Source: Candidatus Kapaibacterium sp.
GTDB lineage: Bacteria; Bacteroidota; Ignavibacteria; Kapaibacteriales; NICIL-2
NCBI GenBank assembly: GCA_025055755.1
Contig: JANWWF010000007.1
Span: 17,286-67,625 of the forward strand
DNA: 50,340 nucleotides
Reading direction: 5' to 3'
In this document: one piece after another, positions 44,955-50,257 of the stretch
Numbering within the stretch: position 1 is the first letter of the stretch
How the letters are laid out: every line of letters starts with the position of its first letter
Notes under the pieces: generated by a model
What the model saw: only the letters and a program-made list of their open reading frames with translations
Database searches by the model: none
What the model was told of the DNA's origin: nothing
Program-made: the position numbers and the translations under genes

Positions 44955-46847
44955 TCACACGATGATAACGGGAATTGAAAGAGCATGTCGAACGGGGGAA
45001 ATTGTTGCCCCAAACAGCAGGTCCTTCCATCCACGGTGGCGATGACCACCCATCACAAGCACATCTGCGCCACAGCTTTGGACCATCCGCACAAGCTCAC
45101 GGGGAACATCCCCATGCCCAATAAGTCCCGTACAATCGATCCCACGCTGGCGCACCATGGTGCAAAGAGCGGTTACGTACTCTTCATCGGCACGCGCCTC
45201 CGCATCGTAGGCGGTAGGATACACCGTTCCGACAGCCCCTTCGACTACGTGGAGGAGCACTACCCGTCCGCCATGCTGCTGTGCAAGCATTACCGCTTGC
45301 TGCACCACTGCGGGATCTTTTTCATCGTGCGCGATCGCAGCAGCGATCACCCGGTATTGCGGAGCATAGCCTATCTGCTCTTCGACCCGACCAAGCATCT
45401 CGTGCCAAGAGCGGATAGGTTGCTGTCGCCAGCGGCGCACAATCGGTAGCAGGAGCGTTGCAGCAAGGAGCACTGCCAAAAGCAATGTCACACCGACCAC
45501 AATGATCGTAAGCAGCAGCGAGTCAGTGGCAGCAAGCCATTCTGCTACTGTCATTGCTGCCAATCGGACGTTCAATGTCACAACGATTGCTGCAGCAATC
45601 CAGCCCAGAACACGGACCCATACAGGACTAACCAGCTCGCCCATCATCTCTCGGCTTGAGGTGAAATGGACCAGCGGAATTACTGCAAAGGGAAGCTGCA
45701 TACTCAGGATAACTTGGCTGAGAATGAGGAGCTGATAGGTGCCACGATCACCCATTGTCACAAGCACGACAACGGCAGGAACAATTGCAATCATGCGTGT
45801 AACAAGCCGGCGCAAAAATGGTCGCATTCGGAAGCGAATGAATCCCTCCATGACGATTTGCCCTGCCAGAGTTCCCGTTAGTGTTGAACTCTGCCCTGCC
45901 GCAATAAGAGCAACTGCAAAAGCTGTACTCGCCAGCGTCGTTCCCAGCAGAGGCGCAAGCAGCGCATGTGCCTGTTCGAGCTCAGTTACTTCGATCCCAC
46001 GTGCGTGAAATACTGCCGCTGCTAAGACCAATATCGCAGCATTGACAAAGAATGCAGCATTGAGCGCAATTGCCGTATCCACGAGATTATACTGGCACGC
46101 TTCCCGCTTCCCCTGGAGCGATTGGTCATAGGCACGTGTTTGCACCAGTGCAGAGTGAAGGTACAGGTTGTGCGGCATCACCGTTGCCCCAATGATCCCC
46201 AGTGCAACGTAGAGCGCTTCGTCTGGTAGCACCGGAATGAAGCCCTGGGCAATCTCCGCAGCCGCAGGCTTTGCCAAGACCAATTCGATAACAAAGCATA
46301 CGCCAACGACAAACACCAGCGAGAGGATAAACGCTTCGAACTTCCGCACACCCAGGTTTTGAATAGCAAGCAAAAGCAGTGAATCTGCCCCTGTGACAAG
46401 GACTCCCGCCAGCGTGGGAATGCCAAAGAGCAAGTGCAGCCCTATTGCAGTCCCCAGCAGTTCAGCCAAATCACAGGCAGCAATTGCAATTTCTGCCAGA
46501 ACCCACAGCGCGTATGCTATCGGCGCGGGATAGTGTTCCCGACAGGCTTGGGCTAAATCGCGACCGCTGGCAATGCCAAGACGTGCAGCCAGGGTCTGCA
46601 CAAGAAGCGCAATGAGATTCGACAGGACCAACACCCACAAAAGCGTGTAGCCAAAGCGTGCGCCTCCTTCCAGATCCGTTGCCCAGTTGCCAGGATCCAT
46701 ATAGCCGACGCTCACCAGATATGCAGGTCCCAGAAATGCAACAACACGCTTCCATCCCCGTGCCGTCTGAACAATCGGCACACTTCGGTGCACTTCGGGC
46801 AGAGATACATACTCGCTTGGAGTAATGCGACTGCGGCGAAATTCCAC
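44955..46847 (-). CDS. Nramp-family divalent metal transporter fused to a universal stress protein domain
   Basis: The 630-residue protein starts at a GTG. Residues about 35-450 hold the Nramp core with about 11 membrane segments: the metal-site motif DPGNWATDLEGGARFGY at 51-67 and the second one in GATVMPHNLYLHSALVQTR. This core is close to MntH proteins for proton-driven Mn2+/Fe2+ uptake. Residues about 485-630 form a UspA domain with AIAHDEKDP and the ATP-type motif GGHRHRGWKDLLFG-ATISPVRH. Such fusions occur in Bacteroidetes; the UspA part may sense nucleotide or stress. It forms a two-gene unit with the small basic protein downstream. Confidence 0.92.
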   Translation of the reverse strand: MEFRRSRITPSEYVSLPEVHRSVPIVQTARGWKRVVAFLGPAYLVSVGYMDPGNWATDLEGGARFGYTLLWVLVLSNLIALLVQTLAARLGIASGRDLAQACREHYPAPIAYALWVLAEIAIAACDLAELLGTAIGLHLLFGIPTLAGVLVTGADSLLLLAIQNLGVRKFEAFILSLVFVVGVCFVIELVLAKPAAAEIAQGFIPVLPDEALYVALGIIGATVMPHNLYLHSALVQTRAYDQSLQGKREACQYNLVDTAIALNAAFFVNAAILVLAAAVFHARGIEVTELEQAHALLAPLLGTTLASTAFAVALIAAGQSSTLTGTLAGQIVMEGFIRFRMRPFLRRLVTRMIAIVPAVVVLVTMGDRGTYQLLILSQVILSMQLPFAVIPLVHFTSSREMMGELVSPVWVRVLGWIAAAIVVTLNVRLAAMTVAEWLAATDSLLLTIIVVGVTLLLAVLLAATLLLPIVRRWRQQPIRSWHEMLGRVEEQIGYAPQYRVIAAAIAHDEKDPAVVQQAVMLAQQHGGRVVLLHVVEGAVGTVYPTAYDAEARADEEYVTALCTMVRQRGIDCTGLIGHGDVPRELVRMVQSCGADVLVMGGHRHRGWKDLLFGATISPVRHALSIPVIIV

Positions 46848-46882: not shown

Positions 46883-46905
46883 AGGCGTCCTTTGAGAAGA
46901 CGCCT
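46883..46905 (-). terminator. Hairpin downstream of the DUF1501 gene
   Basis: On the minus strand AGGCGTC and GACGCCT form a 7-base stem with a 9-base loop, followed by ATTTTCG. It lies 45 bases after the DUF1501 stop and 36 before the transporter start, the right place to end the DUF1800-DUF1501 transcript. The U run is short, so efficiency is uncertain. The following TATTTTCG also resembles a -7 box for the transporter gene. Confidence 0.45.
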
Positions 46906-46949: not shown

Positions 46950-48539
46950 TCAGCGTGCAACCGTGAAGCTCCGATGCACGAGATGCTCGCCTACTCGACA
47001 TTGAAGAAGGTAACTGCCACTTTGCAAGGGAGGCAAGGGTAACTGGCTATTCCCTTCCGGCAATAAACCGTGGAAAACTTCGCCGACAAATTGTCCACGC
47101 GTATTGTATAGCTCGAGCACCACTGCCGCCATTTGTCGTAAACTCAGCATCACCTGCCCAGTGGACGACACCGGATTTGGTGCAATGACGACCGCATTCT
47201 CCTCTGTCCCCACCAGTGGCGAGCTGGTTGTCGTCCGCCGCTTGATGACGTTGAGCGGCGCGATACGCTCCCCAAGGATTGCTGCGGTGTCTTCGGCAGT
47301 AGCATCGAACCAATTGAGTAGAATGTCTGCATACAATCGGCGGTAGTCATGTTGATAGATGAGGTCCCCATTTGCATCGAGATTTTGCAAGTCTGGCATT
47401 GTTCCAAAGCGCGAGGAGCGAATAGACGTGCCGTCGCCAAAGACAAATTGTACTCCTGCTGCGCCGTGGTCAGTCCCTCGGGAACCGTTTTCGTAGGGGC
47501 GGCGACCGAACTCCGAGATCGTGATTCCTACTACTCGATGGGCAAAACCTTGCTGGAGAGCATCCTGCATAAAAAGTGCGACCCCATTAGCAAGTTGGGA
47601 AAGCAGCGATGGATGTACTCCTTTGGTTACGTCATCGGCTTCCTGCTGTTGGACGTGCGTGTCAAATCCCCCAAGGTAACACAAATACACCTTCGTTTTC
47701 AATCCACCGGAAATAAGTCGAGCAATCATCCCCAGTTGTGCAGGAAGCCCTCGCGAACCATAGTCCACTGTCGTTCGTCCACGGTTGTATGCATCGAGGA
47801 CCGCCCGGGAATAACCATCTGCTTGCATTGCCACCGAACGAATGTAGTTGAATTCCCGCGCAAAGGCATCAAGCTCCGGTAAAGGCTCTTCATCGGGTGA
47901 TGCACCACGACCAAGCTCGAAGAACTTCTGCGGATCAGTCAGGGCAATACCAACATCCCCTTTGGCCGATTGGAACAATAACGACAGCGTCCCTCCAATT
48001 TGGACACAGAGAGGATGCTCGGGTAGCACCGCCGGGAAATCCGGAAGTACGCGGGCAAAAAAGCGTCCTATCCACCCTTCACTGAGTCGCACAAATGGAT
48101 CAGAGGAATTGATGCCCGACAGCCAAATATCCGTCGAGCGAAAGTGGGAAAGGTTAGGATTGTCGTAGCCAACATCCTGCACAATAGCAAGACGCCCTTG
48201 ATCCATCAGCCCGCCCAACCCACCGCCATAGAGCCCATCCCCTGCAAGTGATGGATGCAAGTACAAATCGGTCGAGAGCCAACGCCATGCCTTGTTTTTC
48301 GGTATTGCCAGCGTTGGACGCAAGCGATAGTATTCGTCGTTCTCTGCAGGAATTACCGTGTTGAGCGCATCATTTCCACCGAAAAGCTGGATGATGATAA
48401 GCACATTGTCACTTTCCATGATGCGAGGAGGCAGTGCCAACACGGGAGAGCTGGCACGAACAGGGACGCCTGCAATCTGAGTTGCAGCAGCCGTTGTCGT
48501 TAGTGCTGCCGCAGCACGAAGAAAATCACGTCGTTTCAT
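46950..48539 (-). CDS. DUF1501 protein with Tat signal and T9SS sorting domain
   Basis: The 529-residue protein starts MKRRDFLRAAAALTTTAAAT, a twin-arginine (Tat) signal. The main part is the DUF1501 domain (sulfatase/alkaline-phosphatase-like fold) with VLIIIQLFGGNDALNTVIPA, the FRSTDIWLSG region, GGFDTHVQQQEADD, ISEFGRRPYENGSRGTDHGA and FVFGDGTSI. The last 75 residues (VVIAPNPVSSTGQVML, VVLELYNTRGQFVGEVFHGL, SGSYLLQCRVGEHLVHRSFT) are a T9SS type A sorting domain. It lies 21 bases downstream of a DUF1800 gene, its usual partner. Activity is unknown. GGAGG upstream of the ATG is part of a small hairpin. Confidence 0.93.
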   Translation of the reverse strand: MKRRDFLRAAAALTTTAAATQIAGVPVRASSPVLALPPRIMESDNVLIIIQLFGGNDALNTVIPAENDEYYRLRPTLAIPKNKAWRWLSTDLYLHPSLAGDGLYGGGLGGLMDQGRLAIVQDVGYDNPNLSHFRSTDIWLSGINSSDPFVRLSEGWIGRFFARVLPDFPAVLPEHPLCVQIGGTLSLLFQSAKGDVGIALTDPQKFFELGRGASPDEEPLPELDAFAREFNYIRSVAMQADGYSRAVLDAYNRGRTTVDYGSRGLPAQLGMIARLISGGLKTKVYLCYLGGFDTHVQQQEADDVTKGVHPSLLSQLANGVALFMQDALQQGFAHRVVGITISEFGRRPYENGSRGTDHGAAGVQFVFGDGTSIRSSRFGTMPDLQNLDANGDLIYQHDYRRLYADILLNWFDATAEDTAAILGERIAPLNVIKRRTTTSSPLVGTEENAVVIAPNPVSSTGQVMLSLRQMAAVVLELYNTRGQFVGEVFHGLLPEGNSQLPLPPLQSGSYLLQCRVGEHLVHRSFTVAR

Positions 48540-48540
48540 G

Positions 48541-48553
48541 GGAGGACACCTCC
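48541..48553 (-). promoter_or_regulatory. Ribosome binding site inside a small hairpin
   Basis: The minus strand reads GGAGG-TGT-CCTCC one base before the DUF1501 ATG. The first arm is a consensus Shine-Dalgarno at a suitable distance; the second arm is its exact complement. The 5-bp/3-nt hairpin could hide the site until ribosomes finishing the DUF1800 gene, which ends 8 bases upstream of it, open it. Confidence 0.5.
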
Positions 48554-48560
48554 AGTGTTG

Positions 48561-50108
48561 TTAGCACAAGTGAAAATCAGGGGCTTTGACCATAGCGCGC
48601 AATAGCGAACGCAGACGCGGTCCAACAGCCTGTGCATCCGCAGCAATAGAGCTCCACTCGTAGCTTGGTGCGCCCGCCAGCAGAATGCTTTTGTAGTACG
48701 CTGTGCGGTCTGCACTAATTGGACGCGGCAAGAAATACTGGCATAGCTCAGTCACACAAGTATCAATCGTGCGCCAGCCAGGAAACTTTTGGATGAATTG
48801 CTGGGCATGCTGATCGCTGATGCTGGCAATAACTTGGTTTGCATATGCAATCCGCTGGGGGAAGGTTTTTGTGCTTATCCATGTGCGATATCCAGGCCAC
48901 CCCGATACATCGGGCGGATCGATTAGGTCTTGCTCCATCCGCGCCAGCGCATCGGCAGCACCGCTAAGAGTTACCCCGAGCTGTCGCGCCAGCCCTACCA
49001 CATAGTCTGCTGGCGTTTTGATTTGCACGCCGCGATTAGCAGGGTCAAAAAAATGCTTGCTGGTAAGCATCGTTTGCACCAGAGGACGAAGCTCGAAGTC
49101 ATTGCGCATAAACACATCCATCAATGCAGCGAGCACTGTTGCATCGGTTGCAGCAGGATTACTGTACACAAAAAACCGGTAGAGCTTTCCCACCATAAAG
49201 CGTGCGATTGCCTCAGCTCGCTGCTCAAAGAGAATCTCAATCATGCGGCGTACCTCTTGCGTGCGCACTAAGTACTCTGTGTTCGTGTCTTGGTCGCGAG
49301 CGGGGATAGTGACTCCCAAGAACTGTTTTGCTCCAATATCGTGGTCGCTTGGCTTGAACCAGGTGTTGAAGATACCATTGGGAGCCGGCGCATCGCTGTA
49401 GAGCGACGCTTTCCATCCTGTTAGAACACGCGCAGCTTCTTTGACATCTCCTTCGGTGTACCAGCCAATGCCAGTAGAGTACAGTTCCATCATCTCTCGC
49501 GCATAATTCTCGTTCGGCGTCCCTGCAACGTTGAGTGTGCCTCCTAAGTACTCCAGCATTGCGCAATCGAGTGTGACTTCTTCCAGGAACATGCGGAAGT
49601 TCCCTAATCGCATCCGCCGTAGCATGAGATTTTGGCGGTAAAGCACTTGCGGGGGAATGTATCCAAGGTCGTAGGTAAACTCTGTGGTGAAATGGCCACT
49701 CCAAAAGAGGGTCAGTTTTTCGCGTGCAGGAAGAGTTTCGGTGCGCATCAGTTCGATCCACCACTCCTGCAACCGCTTGAAGTTTGCTTGCCATGTTGCT
49801 TCAATTTGTCCGCGCGTTACGATATCCACTCCGCGAGGATCCTCTTGAGCTTGATCAACCCAGGGACCAGGGGATGGCAGAGGTGGTTCTGTCCCGGGCT
49901 CGCCCAGTAAAAGTGCTACAGCTTCCTCGGCGCGTTTGCCCGTTAGCTGCTCGACCAGTGCCACAGACGGACCACATGTTAGCCGGCGGAGCAGATGGAG
50001 CACATCATCGCGCGACAAGGGGACATCGTATGGCTCAATGGATGCAAGTGGCTCAGTCAACCGTGGGGGAGCATGCCGCTCCAGCCCAAGAAAGGCACGG
50101 CGATTCAT
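48561..50108 (-). CDS. DUF1800 protein
   Basis: The 515-residue protein belongs to DUF1800: SRDDVLHLLRRLTCGPSVAL near the start, MRTETLPAREKLTLFWSGHF, LDCAMLEYLGGTLNVAGTPN, NYAREMMELYSTGIGWYTEG, AARVLTGW, FDPANRGVQIKTPADYVVGL and DPPDVSGWPGYRTWI are family blocks. The N-terminus MNRRAFLGLERHAPPRLTEP keeps the twin-arginine beginning seen in relatives but has no hydrophobic stretch, so it is not a working signal by itself. The ATG at 50108 is preferred over 50147. It is the first gene of the pair with DUF1501. Function is not known. Confidence 0.93.
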   Translation of the reverse strand: MNRRAFLGLERHAPPRLTEPLASIEPYDVPLSRDDVLHLLRRLTCGPSVALVEQLTGKRAEEAVALLLGEPGTEPPLPSPGPWVDQAQEDPRGVDIVTRGQIEATWQANFKRLQEWWIELMRTETLPAREKLTLFWSGHFTTEFTYDLGYIPPQVLYRQNLMLRRMRLGNFRMFLEEVTLDCAMLEYLGGTLNVAGTPNENYAREMMELYSTGIGWYTEGDVKEAARVLTGWKASLYSDAPAPNGIFNTWFKPSDHDIGAKQFLGVTIPARDQDTNTEYLVRTQEVRRMIEILFEQRAEAIARFMVGKLYRFFVYSNPAATDATVLAALMDVFMRNDFELRPLVQTMLTSKHFFDPANRGVQIKTPADYVVGLARQLGVTLSGAADALARMEQDLIDPPDVSGWPGYRTWISTKTFPQRIAYANQVIASISDQHAQQFIQKFPGWRTIDTCVTELCQYFLPRPISADRTAYYKSILLAGAPSYEWSSIAADAQAVGPRLRSLLRAMVKAPDFHLC

Positions 50109-50257
50109 GGTTTGCCCTGGCTGAGTAGTATGTAACAATGTAGGCATGGAGCACTAACACGGCTTTGATGCGAAAGTAACGCGCGCAAAAATTATTCCAT
50201 GCGGCCGCTTCATCGCCCTGATGATTTTTGCATTGTAGTTTCAATTTGGGTTTTTCG

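Follow-up and report, generated by a model that had tools for sequence, protein, structure and literature searches.

Cargo of the type IX secretion system (T9SS) is described in reviews, in the parts available, as exported by Sec and folding in the periplasm. The available sections of a 2023 review (PMC10202324) and a 2025 paper (PMC12618676) describe all effectors of the system as having a Sec-dependent signal peptide. Type A cargo (TIGR04183/PF18962), which includes the gingipains and RemA, has a C-terminal sorting domain (CTD) that starts with PNP and contains conserved glycines, and the accessible part of PMC9127263 reports seven strands for such CTDs. In the Tat system, heterodimers with an export signal on one subunit are described in the available text of PMC10924467. 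The pairing of DUF1501 with DUF1800, together with a twin-arginine motif, is reported beside bacterial chitin synthases in the available sections of PMC5122149.

The DUF1501 protein examined here resembles type A cargo in its PNP-start CTD, conserved glycines and seven predicted strands, and both SprA and PorU are encoded in its genome. Where the available sections of PMC10202324 and PMC12618676 describe a Sec signal, however, its N-terminus is of the Tat type – a departure from a described, though not an experimentally required, feature of T9SS cargo. The first-pass annotation had held that most T9SS cargo uses Sec; the contrast with Sec stands, but "most" is an understatement beside the "all" of those sections. 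Compared with CTD-less DUF1501 proteins (PF07394) paired with DUF1800, the protein has the same Tat-type signal, domain and neighbour, while the T9SS domain is absent from the former. No report of T9SS cargo with a Tat signal was met in the available text of the open-licence PMC literature (subscription papers were outside the scope), and the protein is therefore classed as a variant of T9SS cargo rather than as a new system.

The window, meaning the whole stretch of DNA analysed (50,340 nucleotides), comes from a Candidatus Kapaibacterium assembly of 2.33 Mb that is 99% complete and Kapabacteria-like. On its reverse strand a DUF1800 gene is followed, after a gap of 21 bp, by the DUF1501 gene, with the following features:

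48561–50108, reverse strand: DUF1800 coding sequence, 515 aa from the conserved ATG at 50108 (the listed open reading frame opens at 50147), without a hydrophobic signal and without a CTD.
50097–50102, reverse strand: Arg3-Arg4 codons of DUF1800, in a MxRRx[FL][FL] motif without a hydrophobic core, found in 17 of 17 members of the window-like clade.
48549–48553, reverse strand: GGAGG Shine-Dalgarno-like site in the gap, nine bases 5' of the DUF1501 ATG, read directly.
46950–48539, reverse strand: DUF1501 coding sequence, 529 aa, with a Tat signal, an alkaline-phosphatase-like domain and a T9SS type A-like CTD (open reading frame list, profile scores, AlphaFold2).
48453–48539, reverse strand: twin-arginine signal peptide, residues 1–29 (MKRRDFL...VPVRA), from sequence and homologues, with a putative cleavage site.
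48528–48533, reverse strand: Arg3-Arg4 codons of DUF1501; R3 is present in 98 and R4 in 88 of 99 alignment rows.
47235–48416, reverse strand: alkaline-phosphatase-superfamily-like domain, residues 42–435 (AlphaFold2, Foldseek, structure comparison).
46953–47204, reverse strand: T9SS type A-like sorting domain, residues 446–529, seven predicted strands (profile scores, homologues, AlphaFold2).
46883–46905, reverse strand: terminator-like stem-loop of 9 pairs 3' of DUF1501; 4 such sites were found in the region against 3.3 expected, which is not above chance.

The DUF1501 frame runs from the ATG at 48539 to a stop ending at 46950, exactly as first annotated. In a relative (L104), the DUF1800 frame opens just upstream of the ATG equivalent to 50108. 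The next gene downstream of DUF1501 (44955–46847, reverse strand) encodes an Nramp Mn/Fe transporter that continues at its C-terminus into a universal stress protein domain, as a fusion. A functional link between it and DUF1501 was considered and dropped, the Nramp-Usp protein being matched in none of the 110 loci (L073–L182). An Rfam search gave no matches.

DUF1501 matches PF07394 at 62.4 bits (cut-off 27), and all 88 RR-bearing relatives match it at E≤0.05. Its closest named relatives, among the best 80 of 563, are from Candidatus Kapabacteria KatS3mg039 (85% identical) and Chlorobiota SKW269 (83%). The 80 named DUF1501 loci were the best of 563 confirmed, found with an alignment of three paralogues that included both ends of the protein; the set therefore favours CTD-bearing proteins. 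A 99-row alignment (110 loci, less 5 truncated and 9 redundant, plus the 3 copies from the window's own genome) has a mean column identity of about 40%.

Taken alone, the DUF1501 N-terminus, MKRRDFLRAAAAL...VPVRA-SS, falls under the cut-offs of both Tat models (TIGR01409, 14.2 bits against 16.7; PF10518, 15.1 against 22.7), and TIGR01409 matches just 21 of the 88 RR-bearing relatives. Inspection of the sequence, the alignment and the hydrophobicity nevertheless reveals a Tat pattern in the leader: RRxF[LI], a weakly hydrophobic core and an A-x-A-like site. RRx[FLIMVY] lies within the first 40 residues in 88 of the 99 homologues, and in 89 once the start of L179 is corrected. Within the motif, RRxF[LI][KR], F occupies +4 in 85 of the 88 sequences, L or I occupies +5 in 83, and K or R occupies +6 in 47; the position ahead of RR usually holds K rather than S/T. 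Ala29, the probable signal peptidase site to judge from the alignment, is kept in at least 90% of homologues.

The CTD of the window protein is also under both cut-offs (TIGR04183, 19.9 bits, E 5e-4, cut-off 23; PF18962, 19.8 bits, cut-off 27). Among relatives, 78 of the 88 RR-bearing members match TIGR04183 at E≤0.05, and so does each of the other 11 (10 without RR, plus L179), often together with other T9SS families; PF18962 matches 72 of the 88. Like the 89 of 99 for RR, the 78 of 88 for TIGR04183 describes the collected set, not DUF1501 at large. A paralogue on another contig (C44) of the same genome scores 30.9 bits against TIGR04183, above the cut-off. The PNP at the start of the CTD is kept in 92–94 of the 99 rows per column, and AlphaFold2 places seven strands in the last 80 residues (within 450–527), with a pLDDT of about 90. 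While neither signal passes a curated threshold in the window protein alone, the homologues indicate that both are more than chance; the twin-arginine N-terminus and the T9SS C-terminus of the first-pass annotation are thus borne out by the family.

All three DUF1501 paralogues in the genome have both signals, and each starts with MKRR[DE]FL and follows a DUF1800 gene. The joint architecture first noted here is confirmed: it is conserved far outside this genome and sets these proteins apart from cargo routed by Sec. A TIGR04183 search of the genome gave 65 places, 52 of them over the cut-off; it misses weak CTDs, such as those of L001 and the window protein, neither of which is among the places found. 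One place is a DUF1501; among the remaining 64, the N-terminus of 7 could not be read. None of the 57 that could be read has an RRxF signal. Three have RRx[FLIMVY] before a hydrophobic stretch, of which one (L245) is an internal match and two (L194 and L214) have strongly hydrophobic, Sec-like cores. The median hydrophobic peak is 2.50 in these 57 cargo proteins and 1.53 in the 99 DUF1501 proteins, the former taken over 110 codons and the latter over the first 45 residues.

Both machineries are present. The genome encodes TatC and two tandem TatA, along with PorU (774 bits) and SprA (915.6 bits). Across 80 genomes, TatC was found in 75 and SprA in 78. The presence of TatC was rejected as a discriminator, being uninformative: the 75 genomes include DUF1501-poor and RR-losing ones. 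Of the five genomes without TatC, four (G519, G520, G526 and G534) encode such a DUF1501; SprA is missing as well from two of the four, which are therefore probably incomplete.

The gene order, the two signals and their conservation, the contrast with other cargo, the predicted fold and the two machineries were computed directly. From sequence we infer an actual routing, a removal of the CTD, a DUF1501–DUF1800 complex and an enzymatic activity. DUF1501, a predicted member of the alkaline phosphatase superfamily, would fold in the cytosol and cross the inner membrane through Tat in the folded state. T9SS would then take the folded protein across the outer membrane by its type A CTD, which PorU would remove. 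DUF1501 would leave as a pre-formed complex with DUF1800, encoded upstream and without an export signal of its own, and this co-export would be the likeliest reason for the use of Tat. The proposal as a whole is held with moderate confidence. If it holds, some members of the DUF1501/DUF1800 pair, which is widespread and uncharacterised, should lie at the cell surface or outside the cell. A conserved family presumably folded before it reaches the periplasm would also make it possible to test directly whether pre-folded cargo, or even complexes, can pass through the SprA channel.

The DUF1501 model (AlphaFold2, 67 sequences) has a mean pLDDT of 87.5, with a disordered signal region and a well-predicted core. 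The core aligns best with NPP3 (Z 17.4, rmsd 3.8 over 252 residues), followed by PafA, choline sulfatase and MCR-1 (Z about 15–17), and Foldseek gives E 5e-6 to 3lxq. While the predicted fold is like that of these alkaline phosphatase superfamily proteins, identity to them is 10–14%, and the metal ligands and nucleophile are putative; a PDB search with the sequence of the catalytic domain found no solved relatives. The shared fold reveals no function. D57, S131, D293, H295, H309, E343, D357 and H358 are invariant in all 99 rows. S131 stands at the start of a helix, which we take by analogy to be the nucleophile position of the superfamily. Given the fold and the other seven invariant residues, a metal site is plausible. 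The phosphatase-like fold that had been anticipated was thus found in the prediction, with invariant D/H/E residues as candidate metal ligands by analogy. DUF1501 is a putative metal enzyme, and the insertion of a cofactor or metal in the cytosol, as first proposed, is a hypothesis.

Metal loading is also the basis of the alternative that survives best, in which Tat would serve to load an alkaline-phosphatase-like site in the cytosol, away from periplasmic mis-metallation, and DUF1800 would be irrelevant to the routing. The fold and the invariant residues favour it, as do three loci (L107, L108 and L119) in which DUF1501 retains RR and clearly has no adjacent DUF1800. PhoA, PafA, NPP and the sulfatases, however, are mostly exported by Sec, with the metal loaded outside, so the fold does not demand Tat and cannot alone explain it. 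Metal loading also leaves the signal-less DUF1800 unexplained, and as the whole reason for Tat it is considered rather unlikely. Co-export of DUF1800 could fit the data at least as well as cytosolic metal loading.

At the threshold applied in the search, DUF1800 adjoins DUF1501 in 102 of the 110 loci, counting also stretches truncated by the end of a locus. In 82 of the 102 loci the DUF1800 N-terminus was usable, with starts chosen by script, and 76 leaders were long enough to score. They are short and polar, with a median hydrophobic peak of 0.47, and only 4 of the 76 reach 1.5. No T9SS sorting-domain family was matched in the 63 DUF1800 proteins searched. With DUF1800 usually lacking a signal peptide, folded co-export on DUF1501 via Tat is the economical reading. 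In L126 and L147, DUF1800 itself starts with a Tat-like signal. Among the five plasmid copies, that from Paraburkholderia has a Sec signal and that from Vibrio a lipoprotein-type one, both judged by eye. Such signals speak for a role of DUF1800 outside the cytosol, and they also weigh against the co-export proposal. The Tat-exported heterodimers in the available text of PMC10924467 are alike in having one partner with a signal and one without, but the DUF1501/DUF1800 complex is putative and would bear an outer-membrane secretion tag in addition.

In the window-like clade (17 leaders, within L103–L123), the RR of DUF1800 has an entropy of zero, while the next twenty positions range from 2.1 to 3.5 bits, are disordered and have no hydrophobic core. 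To our knowledge, no function has been described for a core-less MxRRx[FL][FL] motif of this kind. A bolder form of the co-export proposal, tentative and thought unlikely, is that the folded heterodimer crosses both membranes whole. The motif would then provide a second point of docking, either at TatBC or on DUF1501, and the single CTD would carry the pair through SprA. If this were true, T9SS would secrete complexes assembled in the cytosol. For DUF1800, the search for solved relatives by sequence gave none that was convincing (the best, at E 0.078, was an unrelated reductase), and Foldseek with the model gave no match at E≤0.001. In structure comparison the best score of the DUF1800 model, Z 5.1, is no better than noise; it reflects a weak likeness of residues 362–515 of the protein (48561–50108, reverse strand) to phycobilisome core-membrane linker domains.

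The N-terminus might instead be read as a Sec signal, the RR being part of an ordinary basic n-region and DUF1501 a normal Sec-T9SS cargo. Ten homologues are without RR; all retain the first arginine and have lost the second, and a tree explains them by two losses, one in a Spirosoma/Runella/Aquirufa clade and the other in a single Saprospirales row. Nine homologues from Cytophagales and L180 have RK, RH, RQ, RS or RA at this place and keep the CTD. In the Cytophagales clade (L134, L139, L141, L144, L148, L155, L160, L161 and L162) the second arginine was lost once and then varied between K, H, A, Q and S. TatC is present in these nine genomes, so either Tat is not required there or the motif tolerates variation; a switch to Sec in this clade is possible. 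The weak matches to the Tat models and the RR beside Sec-like cores in L194 and L214 also favour a Sec route. Against it, RR, and not KR or RK, is fixed in 89 of 99 rows where mean column identity is about 40%, F and L/I are fixed with it, the hydrophobicity is low compared with that of other cargo, and DUF1501 proteins outside the CTD-bearing group are likewise Tat-type. Use of Sec by the family is judged improbable. That the CTD is a generic Ig-like accessory domain, leaving DUF1501 in the periplasm after Tat export, is most doubtful: FlgD_ig matches 20 of the 88 RR-bearing relatives and the window CTD scores below its cut-offs, but the TIGR04183 and PF18962 matches across the family, the best PDB matches (T9SS sorting domains 8glj/8glk and the mirolase CTD, at just E 0.2–0.6) and the SprA of nearly all the genomes argue against it.

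Many DUF1501 proteins have the Tat-type signal and no CTD. In 20 Bacteroidota DUF1501 proteins, chosen by hand among the PF07394 matches listed and with high scores, RR is present in all 20 and a CTD in only 2, so that all 18 CTD-less ones have RR. Thirty canonical long-match loci encode proteins that end at the last conserved stretch of the family, and 27 have RR; of the other three, two are wrong reading frames and one has an unclear start. Plasmid DUF1501 proteins from Thermus, Paraburkholderia, Persicobacter, Vibrio and Azospirillum all have RR (5/5), and none has a CTD (0/5). CTD-less DUF1501 being Tat-type as well, the simplest history is that an ancestral Tat substrate probably gained the T9SS domain at its C-terminus later. 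Two Latescibacterota homologues (L165 and L177) have a dockerin-type EF-hand end (NF041540, in 2 of 88) in place of the T9SS domain, and SprA-like genes are found in those genomes. On a Thermus thermophilus plasmid (L254, 986–2991), an IS982 transposase gene interrupts the gene for DUF1800.
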